A stretch of 64,000 bases of DNA from Bolinopsis microptera (taxonomy: Eukaryota > Ctenophora > Tentaculata > Lobata > Bolinopsidae), in NCBI RefSeq assembly GCF_026151205.1, contig NC_087072.1, positions 15,662,169 through 15,726,168 of the forward strand, read 5' to 3'. This document shows positions 6,343 to 35,462 of the stretch, in pieces. The notes beneath the pieces were generated by a model. The model ran no database searches, was not told the origin of the DNA, and was given only the letters and a program-made list of their open reading frames with translations. Position numbers and translations under genes: made by a program. Position 1 is the first letter of the stretch; the number at the start of each line of letters is the position of its first letter.

Positions 6343-9300
6343 GGAGCAGCGAATGACGAGTTAGCTACCACCCTGTTCGAAATACTGCCAACTCAAAAGG
6401 GCAGCGAGGAGGATATAGTGACCCTGTTAACAACCGTGTGCACTAAACTGGGAAATGAAACACCCCTCACACCCACCGCGCTCCGGGCTATCGTGGACGT
6501 GATCCGGGAAACTAACAAAGAAACACACCGACACGCACTCCACCACGGCTGTATCGTTCTGCTGTCCAAACTCGCTGCTCACTTTCCTGTCCTGGTCCTG
6601 GATCATGTGATCGCTATCTTTACATTTATGGGTGACAGCACGATGCGAATGGATGACAACTATTCTATACAGGTAGGAGACTGGCGGCCTGTCTTTGATA
6701 AGTTAGTTTTGATTGTTGCTGTGGTGTGTAATGAAGGTTTTAATTATATTATCTTCTCAGTGAAATGACATTTTAAACGATGCCTACTTTAAAATATATA
6801 GTTCATCAACTGGGATAATTGACAATTAGTTACGCCTTGTAACACAATTGTAATAATAATATATCATAGTTTATAGCTTTTAAGCAGTCGCTGTGATTAA
6901 ACCAGAGAACTGCGAACTCTCTTTTTATCATCGTGTTCGGTCCATCGTTACAGTACTTTAAAAGTACTGAGTACAACGATACACTATTCATATTATTTAT
7001 TTATCAATCACTGATACATCAACCCTGTCAGGTTCTGATTGAAGCTATCGGCACTATAGTTCCGGTTATCAAACAGAAAAAGGACATGATGAGCATTTTG
7101 AGGGTGTTCTGTGACACGCTACCCCACATTCCCTCCCACCGGGCAGATCCTATTTTTACTCTTCTGCTGGAAACATCTGGTCCTCAATATCTGTATCACG
7201 TGTTTGTTTTCGTGTTGGAACTATGCAGCAGGTCAGTAATGATCCGTCGGATCATGAGCATGTGTTTTATATGTGCAGCTCCTGTTTATAATATCAAAAG
7301 AAACTCATAATCTCATAATGAGTTCAATGTATGTTAGTTAACAACATCATACTAACTGGCTAGTGTTCTGAAAATAGTTCAAGGACAGAGCTACCATCAC
7401 AGTTTTCTAAAATCCCTTCAGAATCTTACTGAATCTTTTTCAGGGACCGAGAGCTAGCATCCCAGTTTTCCTACTTCCTTCAGAACCTCACTATCCATTT
7501 CGGCCTATCTGATCTTTTAGGAACCTCTGTTGGACTCATTAAAACACTAGCAGCATTGCCGGATAAACTGACGAAAATGGTTTGCTGCATAAAATAAAAA
7601 CGTTTTGAGAATTGAGTAATTTCTAATTTAAAAGAAAGGTAAATCAACATTTTACGTCTATTGGGTATGCTTATTGCTTAACCGTATCGGATATCGGGAT
7701 TCTGATTTATCTTGATTTTCAGACTGGTAAGACACACAAAGTTCGCTTGGACAGTGGAGTTGATCTTAGCTTCAACGATACGAAGCATTATCATTACTTC
7801 AAACTTGGTCTGGCAACGCAACTTTACTTGCTCACCACCAACAAGCACTTCACCGGTAATGATATTCATAAAGCTCCCGATAAAAACATTTTGGGACATG
7901 TCCTAACTCTTAAGTCGCACAAAAAAAATTAATTCAGCATACGGTTAACCATTTATTAATAAATAATGATTTGTGAAAGCACTCGACGTATCACCGATTA
8001 GTAAAAAAGAAAGCTTATAATATAACAATACAAAAATGGTTTTTCATCAACGACGTTTATGAAGGAGCACTTAGCTAAAAAACACCTGTTACGTACAGTA
8101 GACCAATTGAACAAATCTTGAGTCCTTTAACTAGACATATTTCCAAATCATATGTCACACATTTACGTCGAACCATTTAATTGACATTTTAAATACTGGT
8201 GATGAACTCGACGGAGAGTAATGGAACTGAGATCTTGACTCCTGATGAGCCTGAAAAAATGATGGAGAGTCTATTCATGTACATTGCACCATTCAATCTA
8301 GTCTTGGCTGTCATTGTCCTCTTCCTTAACTCTACAATCCAAAGAGACTACTTTAGAGACAGAAAACTGCCTGCCACCTTTTTGTTCATGATCATAGCGG
8401 CTGCAGACATATTATTTGCCACTGCAGACATATACAGGAGCTCGACCGCATTAGTCTGCACGCAGCGTCATGATGCTTCGTTTCCAGCTTGGTTTACAAT
8501 GTCTTACGTCACTATAGGCTTCTGGGGTTACAACCTTTCAATATTTGCCAATGTAGTGCTTGTGGTTGTCAAGTCAGTAAATTTGTCAGCACCATTTTAT
8601 CAGCTGGAACAATGGACGATTGCCGTAGCTGTTGTAGTCGGCGGAATATTTTGGGCTTGTCTAAGCGTTACAGATGCAATATTTTTCGCAGGAAACAACA
8701 ATTTCACTTCCTTCGGCTGTAAGGAGCAATGGGAAATTTTGGAACACTACGATTTCGTTGGTACTGGAATAGCATCCGAATTTGACCCAGTTAATTCTCT
8801 CTTCATATCGAAAACGCTGGCTGTGGCTGAATATGTTTTTCCGAGTATCATAGTTTTAGTCTGCATGGTGATACAAATGGCTGCTATTAGGAAAACTCTG
8901 GGGTCCACGAGCAAGGAAATTGCCAATGAAGTTAATCTGACGGTGTTCTTAGTATCCGCTGTGTACTTCATATGCAACAGTGCTTACGGCATATTCTTCC
9001 TGACAGAGTACACCCTTCAAAGGAAAAACACATTGAGTATTGAATTCTTGATGAAACACACTCTACCCCTGTTAAACGCAGCTCTATTTCCAATCATTTT
9101 GATTTGTAGAAAAAAATCTCTGAGAACCCAGTATCTTGGTTATTGGGCTGCTGCCCTCGGCCTTCCAAAAAAGCTTCGCCGTGGAGCAGTGAAAAGGAGC
9201 AAAGATGGTCAGCAATACGATGCTGTGGCAAAGGTTGAGTCTGACTCTGATTAGGAAGACGTACCTAGCGACTGTAATATAGATTATAGAGCGTTTGACC

Positions 9301-12300
9301 AACGTATTTTATGGACTGAATGTATTTTAAAACATGCGAACAGTTGATTTTGATTCTGATTTAATGCGTATACAATCTGGATTTTATACGCCACTTTTAC
9401 TTTTAAGCTTGAAACTACATAATTTGTCATAAATCACTTAAATGTATTAATCAGGTCGATTTTAAATTCTTTTAGCTAAATTAGATCTTTTTCATTTGCC
9501 TTTATCTGTTTCTTACGTCATCGCAGTCTTACAAAGCTGTAATAAAAATAAATAATAATGTTTCTCATCGTCGTGGATAGAATGAGGCATAGTTTTAAGT
9601 TTATTTCCCCGCAAACTGACATTATATTACATGCAGCCATCTTAAATTCGGGAATTCCAAAAAATAAAGATATTAGATATTACAAAATCAGAAAATTCGA
9701 ATGGATTCTGTAATCCGTGCCAATCAAATCTTTTAGTTGAAAACTCTTCCCATCTCTAATTTAACCGACTGATAACTAAAACTTTTTGCATTTTTTAAGA
9801 AAGACAATTTTTATTTTCTCTGATGATTGCTCCAAAAGAAAATTTTGTGAGTACCTTGATGGCAGATATCAAAATATTGTAGAGAAAACTATAATCTACA
9901 TAATCTCTTCAGGATTGTTATCTGATTTCGAGAAAGATAAGGGTGACGAACAGAAGCTAGCGGAACTGATAGAACTGTCTCTTTCCATCATGATACATTA
10001 CCAAGATTCTCATGGGGACAAGTTTGTTGATATGCTCAACAAACGGTTAACTGGTAAGAAAAGTTTCGTTGTTTCTTGACACCAATGGCGTATAATCCGA
10101 TACATCACTCGCGAAGCTCTACAGCAATGCTCGTAAAACTCATATTATATTATGGGTATATTATGTAATGATTTGACCAATGGCTGAAATGGTTTAGACT
10201 TTATGGAGAAGATCTAGGCATAAGACTACTGAAAAAAAATAATGCACTATCAGCAGAAAACGGCACTGAAGCATTAACCAAAAACATAATCAAAGGTTAG
10301 CGAACCCCAAATGTGAACAGTAAAACGTAACTACTCCCTATTACTAGTGAGCTGAGTTTTGATTTACTATTTGTCGAAAGCAATGATCTGTGATTAGTTT
10401 AATAAATAGACAAAATACCCCCATTCCATGGAGCACCCACTGTGCCATGATACATTAGCTCAGACTTACTCCACTGACAATATCTAAATATGGACAAAAT
10501 TAAACGGTACCGAACTAAAATACGAAAATAGGGAGCACAAGGTTCCGGTCATATGAAATTAAAATGAAATTATGTAGACTGAGAACTCAGAACAGATATA
10601 CTGCAACTGGTTACTGTTTATACTTTTATATAAACAAACTTAATGATACCGTCGCTGCCCCTACAGCCAGAATTGCACATAATTTCGAAGCAATGATGTT
10701 ATCGCCAGATCATGAGGACTTAATCTTCCGCCCAGTTATTGCGACAACAGCCGATCGATTAAACCCTAAATGACGTCCTAGCAGGATTTAACATGTACGA
10801 ACCAATTTTGGAAGACTGTAATTTCTTGTCAGATAGCGTCATGCTGTGCGTTAGGTATTATGTCGCCCAAATCATTCGCAATAATCTGACAAATATGTGC
10901 TACCCCGGCCCGGTGTACTCATCATTTCTATCCTGTAATTTGCACCAACTGAGCAACTCAAGGCGAACTAATGAGATGAACTGTTGTAAATCTTGAATTT
11001 TCCTTGAGGCAGTCAGCCGAAAAAACAATGTTGGTTAAATTGATTAAAAGATATTAGATCATGGGGTTCATAGTACTTTCAGAATGCATCCTAAATGAAC
11101 CTGGAAATAGAAAAATGATGACTTGATGAAAACTATATTCCCTAAACTCATTTAAAGGACCCGATTTCAAAAAGTTGCCGTTATTTTACTCTAATTGTTT
11201 CCAGTATTTAAGAAGTGGTCTCTCATGCCCTGGGTGCTGGGAATGGATAATTTAATTTTGTGTTATCATAGAAAGTTATGTTTTATAACCAGATTAATTA
11301 AAGTTTTGTGATCTTGCAGGAGTGACAACAAGTGTCACAGCTGGACTACCTTCGTCTCTCTTCATCTCCGTTGTGAGAGCTCTCCTCTCCACCGACACCT
11401 CCCTCCTACACGACAAGTCCCTCAACATGCTTCTAAACAGGGTCAAAGGTTTGTGCTGCCGAACATTGTGCTGCCATGTTAGAAAACCGCGAGACAGAAA
11501 AAACACTATAAGTGTGAGGCTCAGACTTAGTGAAATATTTAGGACTTGGACAAAATATGGATAAATGTTAATTGAAACAGGTTAACTAAATATATGGGAA
11601 ACAAAGTGAATAATTATTGTACAAACGGATCCTAACCAAGAATAACTTCAGGCGAGAGTGGTTGGACGGTGGAGCTGGAGGAGAACACAGTGTCCTTACT
11701 GGACACTCTCCTTAAACTAGCTCAATCTCACAGCTTAACATGGAAAGTTCTAGACCTGCTCGTCAAGAAAATAGGTAAGTTAACATATTCGATCATGTAT
11801 CATCGCGGGCTCCTCCAGTTTAACTTTAAACTGATTGAGTGATTAACTTTTAACTGATATCAGCCCGACAAAATGCCGCTCAAAACCGAATATAGATGAA
11901 TCGTCCTTGAAAAAGCAGAGACTTAAATACTGTCTTAAAATATTCCCCGCAAGTGGGGGGTGGGGGTGACCCTTAGACCTGACGGGATTAAGTTTCGGGA
12001 CTAAGATTTCGCCGGATCGATAATTTCCAACCAGATTGAACCGGAACGGAGGAGAAATAAAATATGTCTCTAATTTGTAGCTAGGTGATAATATGTAGCT
12101 TTAAATGATTTAACACAACGTAGTAACTAACCTATAAGAACAGCCAAATTCCCTCTCAGGCTAACTAACTTAAACGCCATAAATGTAACAATTAGCACAA
12201 CCAGGCCAACACAGATTATACGGCAGTGTTTCACAAAGTGGATCCATATCTCTGATATCACAGGTTCGGAAGACATCCAATTCAAAGTAATTCAGACAAT

Positions 12301-15300
12301 CAGACGCGATGCTACTTTGAGTAGTACTCAGATGGTAGTTTACAATTAAGAGCAATGGATGCGAGTGAAACTTATTTACTAGTCTAGTCAAGTAGTCATG
12401 ATTTCCCGTGGCTCCTACCCTCAGAATAACAAATGTGTGGGACCGGGAAACTTTGGGTGCTTAGTCGACGTTCACCGGTCCCTGGTGGTCACAACAATGT
12501 AAGAAAAGCACCTGATTGTGTGACGAGGTCGAACGCATTAAAAACCGTCCCCTCTGCAGAGTAGGTAATTACTGATAAATACTGACCACCTGCGAAAAGA
12601 AGATCCAAATAAACGACTTATATAAACTTTTACCTATTTTGTAAAATGCAGATCCTAGTCGAGACAGGACCCGGATTCTAAGACATTAACCAAGTAAAAC
12701 GGCCAGCTGCAGTTGTCACATGTCAGCGTACGGTGCCAGCCGACGCTTCACGGCACAATTTAATAATCGCATACTCTAACGGTTCGAACGTGCATGCTTA
12801 CCCGGTCCTAATCTCTATGATCTCTATAATCTCTATTTGATAATTTAAGCAAAAATTACTGTTAATGATTTTATCTTATTGGAATTCATGGAGTGCTGCC
12901 AGCTGCTCAATCTGATTCGTGATTAGGCTGTAATTCTACAAGAGCGTCCATCAATATGAAGTCATCGATCTTTATTAAGGTCGTGGGTAGAACATGACAC
13001 ATGGCTGTTGAGATCGTTAAGAAATCGGGTAAAATTGCACGATCAAACACATTTTATTTCAAATGAAACCGCGATTATCCGCTTATTGTCTATTGATTCG
13101 TGTAGAAAAAACAAAACCCAATTCAAATTATGTTAAATGCGAACTGATTTAGATTCTAGCGAGTCGGAAATTTGGTTGGGATGATTACCGTGCTCCTGGT
13201 AACGTTTACAGATGCACATGGTAGATAGTCGGTATATGCATATGGTCGGTTAACTTTTGAAGGTCGACTTACTCACGTGCGGCTTGAAAATTCACATTTT
13301 AATAGACTAATATGTCACGTAGAGACCCAAAAATGTCATCCAAAAGAATTTATCAACTGAAACCAACTGAAGTATCCTTACAGGTTCCAAGTACCCTGAA
13401 GAGTTTGTTAAAGTGCTCGGCGCAGCTGCGACTCATCTTGGCAACAACCCAAGTGATGAGCTCCGGAAATGTATTTGCACGTGTTTGGAAGTGCTGAGTG
13501 TCCGGTGTGTCGCGCATTTGCCGGATCTTGTGAAGATCTCTATTGGGAATCTACAGGATAACAGTGCGGTTTTGTCGGCCGTCATTTCAACTGTTCCTCA
13601 GTTCACCTCTGCTTACATATCCGACATTCTTGTCGCTATGTCCAAGGTGAGTTTATCGTAAATATTACTCGGACAGTGTTCCAGCTTTGGTTGTTTATAT
13701 GTTTGAAACAATGATGTTCGCGAATTTTGGGATTTGATTTTTGCCTGAATTTTTAAAGTCACTGTTTATTATTTCAGGTTTACAGTGATAATTTATCAAA
13801 ACTGAGTGCTGAAATTGGGGGTGGAATTAAGTTAAGGGTCCTTCTTCCTGCTGTGATAAACGCAATCGACACACTACTCGACTCATCTGCTCATGGTGAA
13901 TATATTATGTTGAAATGATAAAACAATCCCAACAATATATGAAATATTTATCATTATATTATTATCAAAAGAGAAAAATATTATCATTCGAGAAGGATAC
14001 AAAACCTTGTTATATTCATTACTATTAGTTTATAGCTATACTAGGCCAGCGAATTAGCATAGACTGTTTAAATGGTTAATTATTAATTAATTATCATCAA
14101 TAATGATATTTGTTGGCTCTCCACCCATTTGGGCCTTGTCATGGCAAAAAAGGCGGGCTTTAATAATTTGATTGCCCATTTATCTCCTACATCCACGTAA
14201 TATAACTGTGGAATTGGATTAAACATAAGTATGAAGCTTATAAACATAGCCTATAAGCATAGTGGATGTCAAAACTAATTGTATAGGTTACCAGATTAGG
14301 CTACTCAATGCTTATCGAAATTGAAACGCCAAAAGAAATTATCAATTACTACGTATGATCAAAGGGGCGCACTAAAACATATTTAATTTTAATTGTCTGT
14401 AACATCAACTTCAGACCTGCGCGCAGTAACGGACACGCTGAGGAAGTGTATTGAGCAGAACGTGACTCATGACATCAAGAACCAAGTTACTGATATCAAC
14501 ACCATCTTCGTGAAGTTACTATCCTACAGGGATACAACCACCAGGTCAGTTAGGGGGAGTGAGAGTAGTTACTATCCTACAGGGATACAACCACCAGGTC
14601 AGTTAGGGGGAGTGAGAGTAGTTACTATCCTACAGAGATACAACCACCAGGTTAGTTAGGGGGAGTGAGAGTAGTTACTGTCCTACAGAGATACAACCAC
14701 CAGGTCAGTAAGGGGGAGTGAGAGTAGTTACTATCCTACAGAGATACAACCACCAGGTTAGTTAGGGGGAGTGAGAGTAGTTGCTATCCTACAGAGATAC
14801 AACCACCAGGTCAGTTAGGGTGAGTGAGAGTAGTTACTATCCTACAGGGATACAACCACCAGGTTAGTTAGGGGGAGTGAGAGTAGTTGCTATCCTACAG
14901 GGATACAACCACCAGGTCAGTAAGGGGGAGTGAGAGTAGTTACTATCCTACAGAGATACAACCACCAGGTTAGTTAGGGGGAGTGAGAGTAGTTGCTATC
15001 CTACAGGGATACAACCACCAGGTTAGTTAGGGGGAGTGAGAGTAGTTGCTATCCTACAGGGATACAACCACCAGGTTAGTTAGGGGGAGTGAGAGTAGTT
15101 ACTATCCTACAGAGATACAACCACCAGGTTAGTTAGGGGGAGTGAGAGTAGTTGCTATCCTACAGGGATACAACCACCAGGTCAGTTAGGGTGAGTGAGA
15201 GTAGTTACTATCCTACAGAGATACAACCACCAGGTCAGTTAGGGTGAGTGAGAGTAGTTACTATCCTACAGGGATACAACCACCAGGTTAGTTAGGGGGA

Positions 15301-18300
15301 TTGAGAGTAGTTACTATCCTACAGGGATACAACCACCAGGTCAGTAAGGGGGAGTGAGAGTAGTTACTATCCTACAGAGATACAACCACCAGGTTAGTTA
15401 GGGGGAGTGAGAGTAGTTGCTATCCTACAGGGATACAACCACCAGGTTAGTTAGGGTGAGTGAGAGTAGCTACTATCCTACAGGGATACAACCACCAGGT
15501 TAGTTAGGGGGAGTGAGAGTAGTTGCTATCCTACAGAGATACAACCACCAGGTCAGTTAGGGGGAGTAAGAGTAGTTGCTATCCTACAGGGATACAACCA
15601 CCAGGTCAGTAAGGGGGAGTGAGAGTAGTTACTATCCTACAGAGATACAACCACCAGGTTAGTTAGGGGGAGTGAGAGTAGTTGCTATCCTACAGAGATA
15701 CAACCACCAGGTTAGTTAGGGGGAGTGAGAGTAGTTACTATCCTACAGAGATACAACCACCAGGTCAGTAAGGGGGAGTGAGAGTAGTTACTATCCTACA
15801 GAGATACAACCACCAGGTTAGTTAGGGGGAGTGAGAGTAGTTGCTATCCTACAGGGATACAACCACCAGGTTAGTTAGGGTGAGTGAGAGTAGCTACTAT
15901 CCTACAGGGATACAACCACCAGGTTAGTTAGGGGGAGTGAGAGTAGTTGCTATCCTACAGAGATACAACCACCAGGTCAGTTAGGGGGAGTGAGAGTAGT
16001 TGCTATCCTACAGAGATACAACCACCAGGTCAGTAAGGGGGAGTGAGAGTAGTTACTATCCTACAGAGATACAACCACCAGGTTAGTTAGGGGGAGTGAG
16101 AGTAGTTACTATCCTACAGGGATACAACCACCAGGTCAGTAAGGGGGAGTGAGAGTAGTTACTATCCTACAGAGATACAACCACCAGGTTAGTTAGGGGG
16201 AGTGAGAGTAGTTGCTATCCTACAGAGATACAACCACCAGGTTAGTTAGGGGGAGTGAGAGTAGTTACTATCCTACAGAGATACAACCACCAGGTCAGTA
16301 AGGGGGAGTGAGAGTAGTTACTATCCTACAGAGATACAACCACCAGGTTAGTTAGGGGGAGTGAGAGTAGTTGCTATCCTACAGGGATACAACCACCAGG
16401 TTAGTTAGGGTGAGTGAGAGTAGCTACTATCCTACAGGGATACAACCACCAGGTTAGTTAGGGGGAGTGAGAGTAGTTGCTATCCTACAGAGATACAACC
16501 ACCAGGTCAGTTAGGGGGAGTGAGAGTAGTTGCTATCCTACAGAGATACAACCACCAGGTCAGTAAGGGGGAGTGAGAGTAGTTACTATCCTACAGAGAT
16601 ACAACCACCAGGTTAGTTAGGGGGAGTGAGAGTAGTTACTATCCTACAGGGATACAACCACCAGGTCAGTAAGGGGGAGTGAGAGTAGTTACTATCCTAC
16701 AGAGATACAACCACCAGGTTAGTTAGGGGGAGTGAGAGTAGTTGCTATCCTACAGGGATACAACCACCAGGTTAGTTAGGGTGAGTGAGAGTAGCTACTA
16801 TCCTACAGGGATACAACCACCAGGTTAGTTAGGGGGAGTGAGAGTAGTTGCTATCCTACAGAGATACAACCACCAGGTCAGTTAGGGGGAGTGAGAGTAG
16901 TTGCTATCCTACAGGGATACAACCACCAGGTCAGTAAGGGGGAGTGAGAGTAGTTACTATCCTACAGAGATACAACCACCAGGTTAGTTAGGGGGAGTGA
17001 GAGTAGTTGCTATCCTACAGAGATACAACCACCAGGTTAGTTAGGGGGAGTGAGAGTAGTTACTATCCTACAGAGATACTACCACCAGGTCAGTAAGGGG
17101 GAGTGAGAGTAGTTACTATCCTACAGAGATACAACCACCAGGTTAGTTAGGGGGAGTGAGAGTAGTTACTATCCTACAGAGATACAACCACCAGGTCAGT
17201 AAGGGGGAGTGAGAGTAGTTACTATCCTACAGAGATACAACCACCAGGTTAGTTAGGGGGAGTGAGAGTAGTTGCTATCCTACAGGGATACAACCACCAG
17301 GTTAGTTAGGGGGAGTGAGAGTAGTTACTATCCTACAGGGATACAACCACCAGGTCAGTTAGGGGGAGTGAGAGTAGTTACTATCCTACAGAGATACAAC
17401 CACCAGGTCAGTTAGGGGGAGTGAGAGTAGTTGTTAAAACACACCCCCTTCTTAAACATGATCAAACATTTTACCGAAAAAAATATTCATAATCGTTTTT
17501 TAAAAAGATGTATATCTTTAATGACGCCCCCCTTTCAGCTTCACTCAAGAAACGGAGGACGAGGTAATATCATGTTTTGTTGGGCTGGTGTACAAGCTAA
17601 CTGAGAAGGAGTTCCTTCCTCTGCTAGTGAGATTACTCGAGTGGTCTAACGGGTCTCTGGAGAGGAGCATTACTTTCTACAACCTTTCTGCTCATCTCTC
17701 AGATAAACTTCAGGTCGGTCAACTCTCCTCCATTACACCGTACACTATTAAATTGCTGTTATCCCGGGAATTTGTCTTAACTATCTTTCGACTTCTTAAT
17801 ATGACAGGCATTTTTTCGTAATACTTTGAATGTATGGAATCCTTGTGTTATTATAATACATGATAGGACGAGGAATGAGGATTCATACCTTTTTGACCTA
17901 CTGTATAGTAATAACATAGTAATACTGCATGTACTTTAATAACGTATTATTGACAGGGACTGTTTTTATTGTTTAGTGGTTCGATCTACCTCAATCTTGT
18001 GGAAAAGCTTCAACAATGCAAACCTCCTGTTCAAACCGAAGGTAAGATTAAGCATTTGAACATTCTCTGCATTTTTCGTTAATAATACAATTACGAAATC
18101 TTTGCTTATTGCTACTAAAACTAAAATAATAATTTATGAAGTCTAACATGAAAATAATCCCATCAATAACAATTATCACCTGTAGCTCAACACTCAACAG
18201 CAATAAATCAACAGCTACTACAAATTATAACATCACTATAAATTATATTAATATTAACTAAACTTGATTATCTTAATATTATTCTCCACTTGGGCCAAAG

Positions 18301-21300
18301 TTATTCTCATCCAACTCAAAATTTCCTATCAAGGGATCGGCAATTTCATTATTTTGCAACGACTGCCCTCTGTCAACTCTCACCTCATCGATAGGCCGAC
18401 CGTTTTTCAGCTGACTAGACTGTCTTATAAATGTCTCTGATGCCCTTCTCATTAACCGTATCATGTCCACCTCTGACCTGGTATTTTGCTTCATAATCTT
18501 ACAAGTATCCTCCACCAGCTGCTTGGACACTAAGTTAGCATAGTAGTTCCTCAACCCCATCAGCTCATCATGTGTACCTCTCTCCTTTACCTCCCCATCC
18601 TTTAAACAGATAATCTCATCTGCGTGCCGTATTGTGCTCAGTCTGTGGGCTATCACTATGGTTGTTTTCCCTGCCATTAACTTATCCAGTGCTTCCTGGA
18701 CATCTCTCTCGTTCTGTGCATCCAGGGCTGAGGTTGCCTCGTCCAATATCAAGATCTCTGGATCTCTCATCGCTGCTCTGGCTATGGCTATCCTCTGTTT
18801 TTGTCCTCCTGAAAGCTGTAAACCACGTGCTCCTGCAAACGTCTCCATTCCACTACGAAACTTGTTAATAAAATCACAATTTGCTAACTCAGCCGCGTTT
18901 TTAATTCTGCTATTGGTGACTTGATCTGGAAATACTGCACCGTAGGAGATGTTATCCATTAGGGTGGTGCTCATAAGGTTGGGGTTCTGACTCACAATCG
19001 CCATCTTCCCATGCAGCTCTGCCAAATTAAAGTTCCTGATATCCTTGCCACCAATAGTTACCTTGCCTTGTTGTGGGTCGTATAGTCTCATTAATAGCTT
19101 GGCAATCGTTGTCTTACCACTGCCAGAATCACCCACGATTGCTGTCATCTTCTTGCGCTGGATTTTCAGGTTTAACCCTGAAAAAACTTTCTCACCGATC
19201 CGGGTGGGGTACCCAAAGTTAACATTTTCAAACTGTATATCCTCCTCCAGTGAACCTACTGTATCTTTGCCGGAAACCACCTCAGAAGGTGTTGACATGA
19301 ACTCCACATAATTTTCTACCTTTGATAAGTCTTCTTCAAAAAGCTCTATTTGAGAGTTTAGACACGTAAACTGATGTTGAAACCTATCAAACAAGATGTA
19401 AAATATCATGAACTCTCCGGGCCTAAAAACAGATTCCACGGCTGTTGCTTCGTAAGCAATCATTAAAGCTAACAAAAGATATTTAAAAGCATGTTCAACA
19501 AATTCATTCTGGATTCTATTGAGCACAAGCTTCAGTTCACATGAAATCCAGCTACTTTCTGCCACTTTCTGTTCCTTGATGTGAAGTTTCTCTTGGGAGA
19601 ATTGCTTTACAGTCGATACCATGTCCAGAGCCTCGTTAATAAGATCCTCTGCAGAAGAAGCTAGTTTAGTCCGACAACGCTGTAACCTCATCGCCTCCCT
19701 CTTTCCTGGCATAAGATAGAGAATGTTAAAAAGTATTGTGAATAAAACTACAGCTCCTCCGATTTGAAGGTTCTTTTTCACCATGTAGACTCCACTCGCA
19801 AATATTCCCAGAAGATGGGCCAAAGCGTAGGGGAAATTCCAACTTATCAAACGGGAGACAGAATGAATGTTGCTATTATTATTCAGATCAGCTAGAGTGT
19901 GAGAGTCATGATATCCTTGGTGCAAGAACAGCGCTTTCTCCAGAGATTTCGTCCTCAAAGCTCCCATAATTCCGTACAGTCCGCGAATGTGAATATAAAC
20001 ATTTCCAAGGTACACTAACCGCTCTAACAGTACCATCAACACAAAACTAACCAACATTGACTTGATATAATCGAACCTGCTGTCCTGATTACACTCCAAA
20101 AAGGTTCGACAGAGAGTGTTAGCATAGATATTCTGGTTGATAACTGTAGTGTTGTCGGACAAAGTTGAGATGATATTCCCAGTTAAGTTTAAAATCTCTA
20201 ATTCCAGAACTTTGCTGCATATGACCATCACGGTTACAACAATCATTCTAATCGTGTCTCGTTTGGTTAGGAGAGCTTTAGAGACTGCTGAGAGGACAGC
20301 TGGTATTGATAGTTTGGTAGTGTGCTCCTTCATGTTGAGGTATATCCCCCTTTCCTCGGCTACTGAGATCAGGTGGGCTGTCATATTAGCAGATCCGGTC
20401 TTGTTAAGGATAACGTTCTGTTTGGTATCAAGATACAGCGCCCCGCGCCCTGCCTTCATACTACACCTGGCAATGATCTCCTTCCACCAGTTTGCTGCTT
20501 CTTGTCGGTCCGAGAACTCTTTAATTTCCACATCCTCCTCCTTAGTACCCAGATAGATCACATTAAACCAATCTTTATCAGCCGTACTCTCCTCACCACA
20601 AGGCTGCTGCTCAAACCCGATTAACTTGCCAGACTTTATCTTCAACGAAAGTATCTCCATCCCATCATCAGCTGTTATTGTGGTCCGTTTGTGTTTGGGT
20701 GTTCTCGAGCACACAGGCTCGAAGGAGAAGGTCCTGCCTCGGCTGGTCTCCAGTTCTAGTGCTGCTCCTGCCCATCTCCTGTTCTCCAGTGTTTCGTGTG
20801 TTACTCGTGCCTGATTTGGATGTAGTTCTGTTTTAGAAAGTGTCCGCAACACATCAAATTAAGTTGCTCAATACTGTCGAATACTATGTGTTGCTAGCGG
20901 AAAATTTCAATAGGTCAATCAGAAATTATATTCTGTATTCTTTAACCGGAATATTAATTATGAGAGCCCATAGAAATAAAACAGTAAAATAAAATTTGCA
21001 TACCAAATATTCATTTTCGGAGAAAACGATTGTCTTTCCGCGAGATTTCCCCCCTCCTAGACCATAGGACCACACGCTGTCATCATCGTATGTAATTATG
21101 ATACTGTCAATTACTTTTACACCTGCACATATTTATGCGTTATGATCATCCCGTACGCGTAAATCATTTTCTCGGCAATTTGGAAAAATGGAAATCTAAC
21201 AAACAATGAATTTAATGAATTGACAAGCAAGCATTTAACGTAACACACAGAGTGCAAACCTTGAACTTCTATTTTTCTGATCCGATACTCCGCTTTAATT

Positions 21301-24300
21301 TTGGTGACTTTGTTCTCCATGATTGATATAAGCTATGACCTCTGTACTGATTCATGAACTTCGACGAACTTGCTCGATGCAAACAACATAAAGGATATGA
21401 ACCCCCTTCTGAACTTTGAAGATATATAAGTGAATATTGATCAAAGTGAGATATTAATCTCGGATTATATTTCAAAGGCACGTAGTAACATACGTGAGAT
21501 CACGTAAAATAAACGATTTCTAATCCAATCATGGAATTATATCTGGGAAATAAATTGAATTGCAGCTAATCTTGAGTACAGAGACCATTAAGACGATTGG
21601 AATATTTGTGGAATGTGGACCCCCTTCCTAAAAATGTATACATTTGACAGGCCCTGATTTCAACACCTAGCCACTTTTACCGACCCGCATCTCAGGGTGT
21701 ATTTTATGGACGGCCACAAGAATACATGAAAGTGACGACAAAACAATTGGACACGTATCAGCAGAGAACCGAGATTAGTCAGGCTATGTTCTAAGTGATT
21801 CCAGATAATCGCGATGATATCATTACGTAAGGATTCTGCTGGCATAAACAGTAATATTGTAACTCAATTGTCAGTTTCACACTAAGTAAGGGTGTAAAGC
21901 ACATATCAAATATCCAGACAGATGTACAGGGAAGGTAAATGGTAATGATAATAATTACTTAATTATCATGTACCCTAACACCTAATTCTAAAACTTGTGT
22001 ACTATTGCATGTACTGTACATATTGCACCGATTAGGGATAAACGTGTCATCAAAGCCCGTGCCTATTTACTGTCCACGTTAAATTTTAAAAAGCCGAATT
22101 TCCTAGATTTTCATTAAAAAGTTGTTGTTCTATTAATACTGGTCTAAAAAGGAGCTGAAAGACTCCACATAGCTACACCCAAGGGCTCAATATATACACT
22201 CAAAATATATACACTTATACAATGCAAACACTAAAAATAGGAGAGAAGTACAACAGACCTCCGGAGTCCCTAAGTTTAACAGGGTATCGAAACTGCCAGA
22301 TTTCGCACAAGCTCATTACTGCAGTCATTTCATGCGGTGTATACATACGATTCTTTATTTATATCAAGTGTCTCTTTATTTATATCAAGTGTCTCGTAAT
22401 TTACCTATATCAAGTGTCTCTAATTTTATATCAAGTGCACAACAAATTGGATTTTCCCGTACTTTATCCCCCTTCATCATTTAGAGTTGAATTTAACGAG
22501 CGAGCTACCAATTTACTATAGCTACTACTATATTTTCGTAATTGTATCACCTTTTTTCCCGCAGAGTTTACAAGCAAGAAAGTCAAGTTATCCTCTGGAT
22601 CTGATCTGGCTATGTACACACTAAAAACCCTTTACAACATGCTGAGATATGACACTGCTCATGGCTTCATAACTGCTGACAGGTGAACTTGTTTGGACCA
22701 CTTACTGCTTACACCACTAACACTGTTCTTTACACTTATTATAGAACAATAGAAATACGTGCATTATACGATGAAGACACGCACATTGCGCGGCTTTTAA
22801 TTGATATGCTAATTGCATTGCAATGTTAATTGCATGGTCATGTTAATTGTTAATAGTGTTGTAACGATGTTCATAGCTAGGTGTTGGGGTCGATTACCAA
22901 TTTATTGGTTATCCTGATATTTTATATTATGGCCTGGGTTTTTTATCATAGTAATGAGAACGTCCATGAATCAGACGTGGGCGCCGCCGAAAATGCTGCA
23001 GCGGCGGCGTGAGGCCGTATTTCACTCGGCGGCGGCGGCGTATCGGCGGCTGGAACCAATTTTTTGGCAACATAGTCATTGTACCACTGACTGACATCTT
23101 ATAAGCTAATGTACACTTTGTATGCTAAGGTTCATTTCAAAATTGAATGACGATTTGAAAGAGCAACTATTTATACTCTGTTCAGCAACAAGCAAATATT
23201 TGGCTACGATAACGGCACAACTGATGTTACGAAATGTAGTTTCAAATTCTTTCGCGTCGCGTGTCATTCATTTTTTTAACTGTTTAGGCAAAAATTTGAC
23301 ATTCGGCGCGCCGATCGAAATTTATCAGCGGCGGCGGCGTGTCGAATTTATCGGCGGCGGCGGCGTACCGGCGGCGGCGCCCACGTCTGCCATGAATGTA
23401 ATTTCTTTAAAAATGCGCATATAATACGCCAACAACCATCGTATTCAAAATACGTGAAAAATACGGCAAAAACGGCTAGCACAAGAAGTATAACGTCAGT
23501 ACATTATGAGCTGTTATCGTTAATATCAAAACTTTATGTTTTCACCCTCTATATTATATCAATATTATTACATGCACGTGCAGTGCATAATAGGAATTGT
23601 GATCGTAACTTCCAGTACGTTCATAAGCAATTAGCATTTTCACTTTAATCGGCTTATATCCGTCATTACTTTCTCAAACTATTTTACGTAAAATACGCCC
23701 CCACTTTTAAAAGTACGTTAAAATACCTATCCTTTCTCCCGGAACATTACAGATACTGTGGTTATTGTATTGAGCCCACTACATTTCGTCCCGCTTTGAC
23801 ACTAACACACTGATAATGTTAACAATGTACCGCAGGTTTGACACTCTGTTACCAGTCCTGCTCGATCTGATCACCCTGCCAGATATCACCCACCTCACAC
23901 CCGCACTAGCTCACCTCCCCATCGCTGCTAACTCTGATAGGCTCTGGAAACAGTTCAACTTTCAAATACTCAACCAGTCCAAGTCTCTGCTGCCAACGGT
24001 ATGTGTTTTGTGTTTTAGACATTTTAATTGGCTGTAACAATAAGTTTTGTACGTGTGCATTGTTCTTTGAATTTAGCTTGATTTGCACTGAAGATTCTGA
24101 AGAATTCGGGAGATGAACAGAAGACATTCCAAATAATTGATTTTAACTTTAAGGTACGACAAAATGTTGTTTCAATCTACAAAGAGTTCATCATAAAGCT
24201 GGGACAGGACTACGGTGTCCTTCTGCCAGACTCGCTGCCCTTCATCGCCGAACTTCTGGAAGATTCTGATCCGACAGTCGAGGAGATAACTCACCAGATA

Positions 24301-34970: not shown

Positions 34971-34990
34971 CGGAGATGAGAGTCCCGAGG

Positions 34991-35017
<27 letters not shown>

Positions 35018-35021
<4 letters not shown>

Positions 35022-35366
35022 GGAGGGAGGGAGGGAGGGAGGGAGGGAGGGAGGGAGGGAGGGAGGGAGGGAGGGAGGGAGGGAGGGAGGGAGGGAGGGA
35101 GGGAGGGAGGGAGGGAGGGAGGGAGGGAGGGAGGGAGGGAGGGAGGGAGGGAGGGAGGGAGGGAGGGAGGGAGGGAGGGAGGGAGGGAGGGAGGGAGGGA
35201 GGGAGGGAGGGAGGGAGGGAGGGAGGGAGGGAGGGAGGGAGGGAGGGAGGGAGGGAGGGAGGGAGGGAGGGAGGGAGGGAGGGAGGGAGGGAGGGAGGGA
35301 GGGAGGGAGGGAGGGAGGGAGGGAGGGAGGGAGGGAGGGAGGGAGGGAGGGAGGGAGGGAGGGAGG

Positions 35367-35372
<6 letters not shown>
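35018..35372 (+). repeat. (GGGA)n tetranucleotide tract, ~88 copies
   Basis: An uninterrupted GGGA run of ~355 bp, preceded by a short (GA) run at 34995-35017. Every 15 nt satisfies the G3N1G3N1G3N1G3 quadruplex pattern with single-nt loops; the complement is a pure polypyrimidine strand. The long reading frames across it in both directions (poly-GREG/poly-SLPP types) are artefacts of the repeat. Confidence 0.98.

Positions 35373-35462
<90 letters not shown>
35373..35462 (+). repeat. (GA)n dinucleotide tract, ~45 copies
   Basis: Pure GA repeat directly abutting the GGGA tract. Together with the left GA run it makes a GA/GGGA/GA sandwich, consistent with the tetranucleotide having expanded inside an ancestral GA microsatellite. 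Confidence 0.98.

Follow-up and report, generated by a model that had tools for sequence, protein, structure and literature searches.

Which 5' splice site (donor) does a gene use if its exon end has been repeated in tandem 55 times together with the donor, and how does the coding end survive in such an unstable repeat? This question is raised by a 53-bp minisatellite in the HEATR1 gene of the ctenophore Bolinopsis microptera, which lies in a 64,000-nt stretch of contig NC_087072.1 (positions 15,662,169 to 15,726,168, forward strand; in the following the window). A first-pass annotation made from the letters alone was right about the gene and the exon end, and its question of which donor is picked still stands, with the annotated protein implying donor 1 (14545). 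It did not see that the coding differences among the units are synonymous, nor that arrays of this kind are known as “mirages”. We consider it likely, with a probability of roughly three in four, that the array is a mirage minisatellite and that splicing proceeds from its first donor to an acceptor beyond the array, which leaves 54 units as intron.

The best protein match to the gene is isoform X1 of LOC134825960 (Bolinopsis microptera). Its assignment to HEATR1/UTP10 follows from a match to BP28CT (PF08146, E 1.5e-16) and to the human HEAT repeat-containing protein 1 (7mq8_LM, E 3.2e-7). HEATR1 is an essential gene with a role in ribosome biogenesis. Spliced mapping of X1 on the window and the upstream 110 kb placed 1,656 of 1,656 residues exactly, in 24 coding exons whose 23 junctions are all GT-AG and unambiguous. 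The coding span amounts to about 60 kb and includes introns of 25.4 and 10.4 kb, and the shortest intron besides the gaps inside the array has 97 nt. At the junction of exons 19 and 20 the X1 protein reads KLLSYRDTTT-SFTQETED, which is an exact fit to donor 14545 joined with acceptor 17539 and contains no insert. The HEATR1 protein of Mnemiopsis reads ISYRDTTISFAED at this junction and is likewise free of an insert. The start of X1 (1,656 aa) corresponds to a point about 188 residues into the Mnemiopsis protein (1,837 aa), as judged from one common motif at residue 5 and residue 193, respectively, and the N-terminus may be absent from the B. microptera HEATR1 model. The features in and around the array are as follows (a slash marks the cleavage position of a donor; PWM, position weight matrix).

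14415 to 14544, plus strand: HEATR1 coding exon 19, 130 nt with a phase-2 end, from exact spliced mapping of X1 residues 1368-1410
14514 to 14566, plus strand: unit 1, comprising the 31 nt of the functional exon end (14514-14544) followed by 22 nt at the start of intron 19
14545 to 14550, plus strand: donor 1, CAG/GTCAGT, implied by the annotated protein; PWM score 10.7, predicted U1 pairing -8.0 kcal/mol
14567 to 17428, plus strand: units 2-55, intronic copies of exon end and donor; 54 of 54 keep CAG/GT, TACAG and LLSYRDTTT
14657 to 14659, plus strand: first in-frame stop, TAG, met in unit 3 upon read-through of intron 19
15627 to 16209, plus strand: units 22-32, 11 units found again without change as units 32-42, at a distance of 10 units (530 bp); no other exact block duplication is as large
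17429 to 17433, plus strand: partial repeat AGTTG, 5 bp; its AGTT is common to exon and intron
17539 to 17713, plus strand: HEATR1 coding exon 20, starting at the acceptor of intron 19 beyond the array

The array begins within coding exon 19, near its end, and continues into intron 19. Tandem Repeats Finder (TRF) reports it at 14514-17432 with period 53, 55.1 copies, 94% matches, 0% indels and a score of 5166, and the unit-by-unit reading agrees with 55 complete and indel-free 53-bp units (14514-17428) followed by the stub AGTTG; thus the 55-copy minisatellite over exon end and 5' splice site had been recognized correctly. Each unit consists of 31 exonic nt, AGYTRCTATCCTACAGRGATACAACCACCAG (singletons at positions 8 and 23 set aside), and 22 intronic nt, GTYAGTWAGGGKGAGTGAGAGT (singletons at positions 46 and 48 set aside). 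This corrects the earlier view that a unit holds just the last 15 coding nt of the exon. Both CAG/GT and TACAG are present in 55 of 55 units. The stretch ending in tatcctacag had been proposed as a possible 3' splice site; in the exon itself it codes for LLSY. Searched with the leading 106 and the leading 159 bases of the array, the assembly (264.65 Mb, 232 contigs) gave matches solely inside the array (at least 25 and at least 22, respectively); the search passes over very common words, and these counts are lower bounds. The array sits within a contig of 26.2 Mb, and its copy number is that of one assembly.

The count of about 55 donors was borne out; all 55 are intact and of similar predicted strength. 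The sequence is CAG/GTCAGT in 24 units and CAG/GTTAGT in 31. A PWM built from the gene's 22 other introns gives the unit donors scores of 10.7-10.9, compared with 1.6-11.6 for those introns themselves (leave-one-out), and of the 3,289 GTs that the window has outside the array only 2 to 4 reach such scores. Predicted pairing with U1 ranges from -8.0 to -9.6 kcal/mol in the units versus -3.4 to -11.0 kcal/mol in the other introns. Seven units carry an additional GTGAGT donor with a score of 7.7. A superior strength of donor 1 was ruled out as the reason for its use because the donors are alike in PWM score and predicted U1 energy. Also ruled out was RNA structure hiding donors 2-55, as donor 1 has no advantage in predicted local folding: its unpaired probability is 0.56 with 60-nt flanks and 0.50 with 150-nt flanks, where units 3-54 average 0.54 and 0.56, respectively.

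The donors differ in what they would leave in the message. Joining donor 1 to exon 20 yields no stop across 289 codons of joined sequence. Donor 2 retains 53 nt and donor 3 retains 106 nt, and in both cases the frame is shifted and runs into a stop in the following exon. Use of donor 4 or any later one would bring the TAG at 14657 into the transcript (13 of the 55 donors were computed explicitly), and since this TAG lies upstream of donor 4, donors 4-55 all carry a stop. The earlier statement that unspliced read-through stops within about three units was correct. This means that the full protein is obtained only from donor 1 or from a chain of micro-exons. On the annotated protein, the outermost of 55 near-equal donors appears to win, contrary to the usual preference: of two comparable donors the intron-proximal one is reported to be favoured, for a reason given there as not known (PMC6002489).

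Ten sites vary among the units, five of them exonic (3, 5, 8, 17, 23) and five intronic (34, 38, 43, 46, 48), and together they define 20 unit types. The six common sites form 15 pairs, and 8 of these show all four combinations of variants (four gametes); therefore the units exchange sequence. Units 1, 2 and 54 all belong to type A and have the same sequence, which is expected if the edges of the array are old. Examined for concerted evolution inside and less of it at the edges, the array shows a mosaic interior and the block duplication with its lag of 10 units, and unit 55, being of another type, departs from the edge type.

The exonic variants are synonymous at 5 of 5 sites in the frame of exon 19, and LLSYRDTTT is encoded by 55 of 55 units. 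Correspondingly, the g/a variant at the first base of the last 15 exonic nt keeps arginine, as had been stated before. With 23 synonymous and 70 nonsynonymous changes possible, an all-synonymous outcome has a chance probability of P = 0.0009 under uniform mutation and of P = 0.004 if the four transitions and one transversion are weighted separately; the frame was set beforehand by the gene, whereas the synonymous pattern had been noticed before it was tested, and the values come from five sites only. In the other two reading frames 0 of 5 and 1 of 5 changes are synonymous. Of the 70 possible nonsynonymous changes 0 are seen, a lower share than the 5 of 66 in the intronic part (one-sided P = 0.025), and the rates of synonymous and intronic change do not differ (P = 0.12). 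This is suggestive of a constraint on the coding sequence of the inner units.

An ordinary neutral minisatellite would have the same array and the same use of donor 1, its inner units being untied to the exon and their variants synonymous by chance. Minisatellites are indeed common nearby. In 274 kb of surrounding sequence (2,500 N) 55 TRF rows with a period of at least 15 and a length of at least 90 bp merged to 23 loci, i.e., 22 besides the HEATR1 array. The small number of exonic sites, and the fact that the pattern was seen before it was tested, also suit this explanation. Against it stand the two chance probabilities, the result in the other frames and the deficit of nonsynonymous relative to intronic change, and we regard it as unlikely. 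Conserved donors are not usual among the local minisatellites: the HEATR1 array (55 of 55) and one two-copy 248-bp repeat have a strong donor at a fixed unit position in all copies, as opposed to 0 of the 21 remaining loci (copies were compared in fixed register, so that arrays with indels may escape).

Repeats of this kind have been described in amphioxus, where minisatellite-like repeats called “mirages” are reported to span exon-intron boundaries of Adh3 and the globin genes BflGb6 and BflGb9 without disturbing regular splicing (PMC3087553). The HEATR1 unit spans the boundary with its exonic 31 and intronic 22 nt, the tandem is of minisatellite size (53 bp x 55; 10-160 bp in the amphioxus report, PMC3087553), AG/GT splice signals are found in 55 of 55 copies, and the annotated X1 protein is regular. 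The amphioxus report also describes use of the true outer boundary and concerted evolution between units (PMC3087553); for HEATR1 the former is implied by the annotation, and the mosaic interior may reflect the latter. In contrast, the ctenophore array has 55 units instead of the 6 and 3 given for two BflGb6 haplotypes, and all its units keep both signals and the coding sequence, while “many, but not all” amphioxus copies are said to keep the signals (PMC3087553). By its sequence, the HEATR1 array is thus a mirage minisatellite, a known kind, with a large copy number and a complete retention of donors and coding sequence. Our literature searches met no ctenophore mirage, which is weak evidence of absence.

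Other parallels are less close. Internal tandem repeats in human segmental duplications, some of them located at exon-intron boundaries, resemble the HEATR1 case in that expansion of a boundary minisatellite alters gene structure; in the report the variable repeats have a mean size of 30 bp x 4, and a transcript that retains the repeat accompanies most of the intron modifications, in contrast with 55 copies and one annotated form seen here (PMC2812944). Competition of nearby donors for U1 is described for exon 1 of ER-alpha (PMC6002489) and intron 4 of DOK7 (PMC5585400). In these cases two donors are separated by 33 or 11 nt and the intron-proximal donor is the canonical one, whereas HEATR1 has 55 donors 53 nt apart and the most intron-distal one is implied (PMC6002489, PMC5585400). 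A more distant parallel are intronic minisatellites of C. elegans, which have been linked to multiple splicing decisions (PMC4039745).

How could such an array have originated and be maintained? Its birth may have been a duplication at the AGTT microhomology common to exon and intron, with the first duplication probably closed at AGTT. Expansion would have followed by in-register unequal exchange and conversion, as suggested by the 20 unit types, the four-gamete mixing and the duplication of a 10-unit block. In-register gain or loss, even of unit 1, would keep the coding sequence together with a good donor. Since every unit supplies an equivalent exon end along with a donor of full strength, the array length would be free to change without harm to the gene. 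Donor 1 may be favoured by exon definition and early commitment, since transcription reaches it before the others and it bounds, together with the acceptor at 14415, an exon of 130 nt. Transcripts from donors 2-55 would be degraded owing to frameshift or stop. Unit k would become the exon end if the array lost the stretch from unit 1 up to it, and unit lineages would thereby be exposed occasionally to selection on the protein; under in-register exchange the inner units would thus stay synonymous. We tentatively consider it possible that the array acts as a reservoir of translation-ready exon ends, in which exchange promotes inner units and protein selection reaches all 55 copies, so that unlimited instability is tolerated while the outermost donor is always taken.

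Several points weigh against splicing from donor 1 to the acceptor at 17539. The intron-proximal preference would predict donor 55 and not donor 1 (PMC6002489). The use of donor 1 is read from the annotated X1 protein, whose 90% cluster has 5 member sequences, and other isoforms of the gene may sit within it. The acceptors of the units reach PWM scores of 3.25-6.64 and match several real acceptors, while the real acceptor at 17539 scores just 1.35 (the other 22 real acceptors range from -1.5 to 12.4). Consequently, the weakness of the unit acceptors was dropped as an argument against their use. Branch-point placement speaks narrowly against the unit acceptors: in 29 of 54 units the best branch-like A lies 11 nt from the AG end, compared with 12-39 nt in the 23 real introns, and in the other 25 units the best branch motif scores 8 (lowest real value 9) and lies upstream of another AG. 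The latter arrangement is also found in 5 of the 23 real introns, and an upstream AG at 11 nt, nearer than the 14 nt of the units, occurs in 2 of 23 real acceptors. Such exceptions mean that these rules do not exclude the unit acceptors. Finally, the 11 positions of the splice signals are free of all 10 variable sites, which is not significant alone (P = 0.075), and selection on the splice signals as deduced from invariance was set aside for this reason.

These acceptors are the basis of the proposal, made by the first-pass annotation, that the units are optional 15-nt micro-exons and give rise to length-variable (RDTTT)n isoforms of HEATR1. Its arithmetic is sound: 15 is a multiple of three, an RDTTT insertion would remain in frame without a stop, and the 15-mers after TACAG read RDTTT in the exon phase in 55 of 55 cases. 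Each unit offers TACAG as well as CAG/GT, the unit acceptors fall within the range of the real ones, both variable sites within the 15-mer are synonymous, and human HEATR1 is 4 residues longer precisely here in the alignment, so that an insert might be tolerated. However, the annotated proteins of B. microptera (X1) and Mnemiopsis are free of inserts, and splicing between neighbouring units would leave an intron of 38 nt, against a shortest other intron of 97 nt (non-adjacent units would be separated by at least 91 nt). It is because of these two points, and narrowly because of the branch-point spacing, in which a rough score gives a narrow margin, that micro-exons are doubted. As 3 of the 5 exonic variable sites fall outside the 15-mer, translation of micro-exons would not explain their synonymy. 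In summary of this balance, (RDTTT)n isoforms are improbable.

Tandem duplication over a boundary can also create introns, as reported for potato RdRp (PMC4974935) and modelled for amphioxus (PMC3087553), and the array could accordingly represent intron gain in progress, in which tandem AGGT duplication makes a new intron within an exon. Potato RdRp is similar insofar as the duplicated boundary copies splice signals, but there the new intron is described as inheriting its signals from one duplication, whereas the HEATR1 acceptor lies outside the repeat and the unit acceptors are unused in the annotation (PMC4974935). Only the donor is situated in the repeat, and the acceptor at 17539 is unlike those of the units; therefore the annotated intron presumably predates the repeat, and an ongoing gain seems very improbable. 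The least probable explanation invokes the protection by U1 against premature polyadenylation, the 55 donors being a landing array for the U1 small nuclear ribonucleoprotein that guards, for example, the gene of about 60 kb with its two long introns: the 55 strong predicted U1 matches at 53-nt spacing and the use of donor 1 would be compatible with it, but the position is late in the gene, the invariance of the splice signals is not significant and the exonic synonymous pattern is left unexplained.

If donor 1 is indeed used, 55 donors of equal predicted strength stand before one acceptor and the most intron-distal of them is taken, which makes the locus a natural test of splice-site choice. 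In amphioxus the copy number of mirages is reported to vary between animals or cells (PMC3087553). Copy number of the HEATR1 array may vary in the same manner and would then provide a natural dose series of competing donors. The array also suggests how a coding end survives in an unstable repeat, namely by every repeat being a valid replacement.

Among the other repeats of the surroundings, the 248-bp repeat mentioned above (L013:2959-3493, minus strand) has two copies with a 98% match and a strong donor-like site in both. The array at L017:5634-7891 has more copies than that of HEATR1 (32-bp unit x 70.6, 98% match) and shows no conserved splice signals. A 2.1-copy 44-bp repeat (L020, ~9691-9782) with AG in both copies was looked at and not recognized as coding. 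A (GAGG)n run at 34987-35461 comprises about 119 copies with 98% matches, and two CT-rich tracts, each about 2.5 kb long and built of TCCTCC-like units, are located in L009-L012, in the HEATR1 intron of 25.4 kb that lies upstream of the window.

The introns of HEATR1 also harbour further reading frames. A frame of 353 aa, in which hydrophobic and receptor-like stretches were recognized by eye, occupies 8193-9254 on the same strand as the gene, in the intron 7856-9912, and matched nothing in Pfam or PDB at the cut-offs applied. Antisense in the 10.4-kb intron is a rhodopsin-family receptor frame (PF00001) at 1209-2534 on the minus strand, and a second frame resembling it by eye is found antisense in the same intron (L009:7145-8278, minus strand). 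At 18279-20858 on the minus strand, antisense in the intron 18042-22564, an intronless ABC transporter frame of 859 aa is present, with PF00005 above the cut-off and PF00664 just below it.

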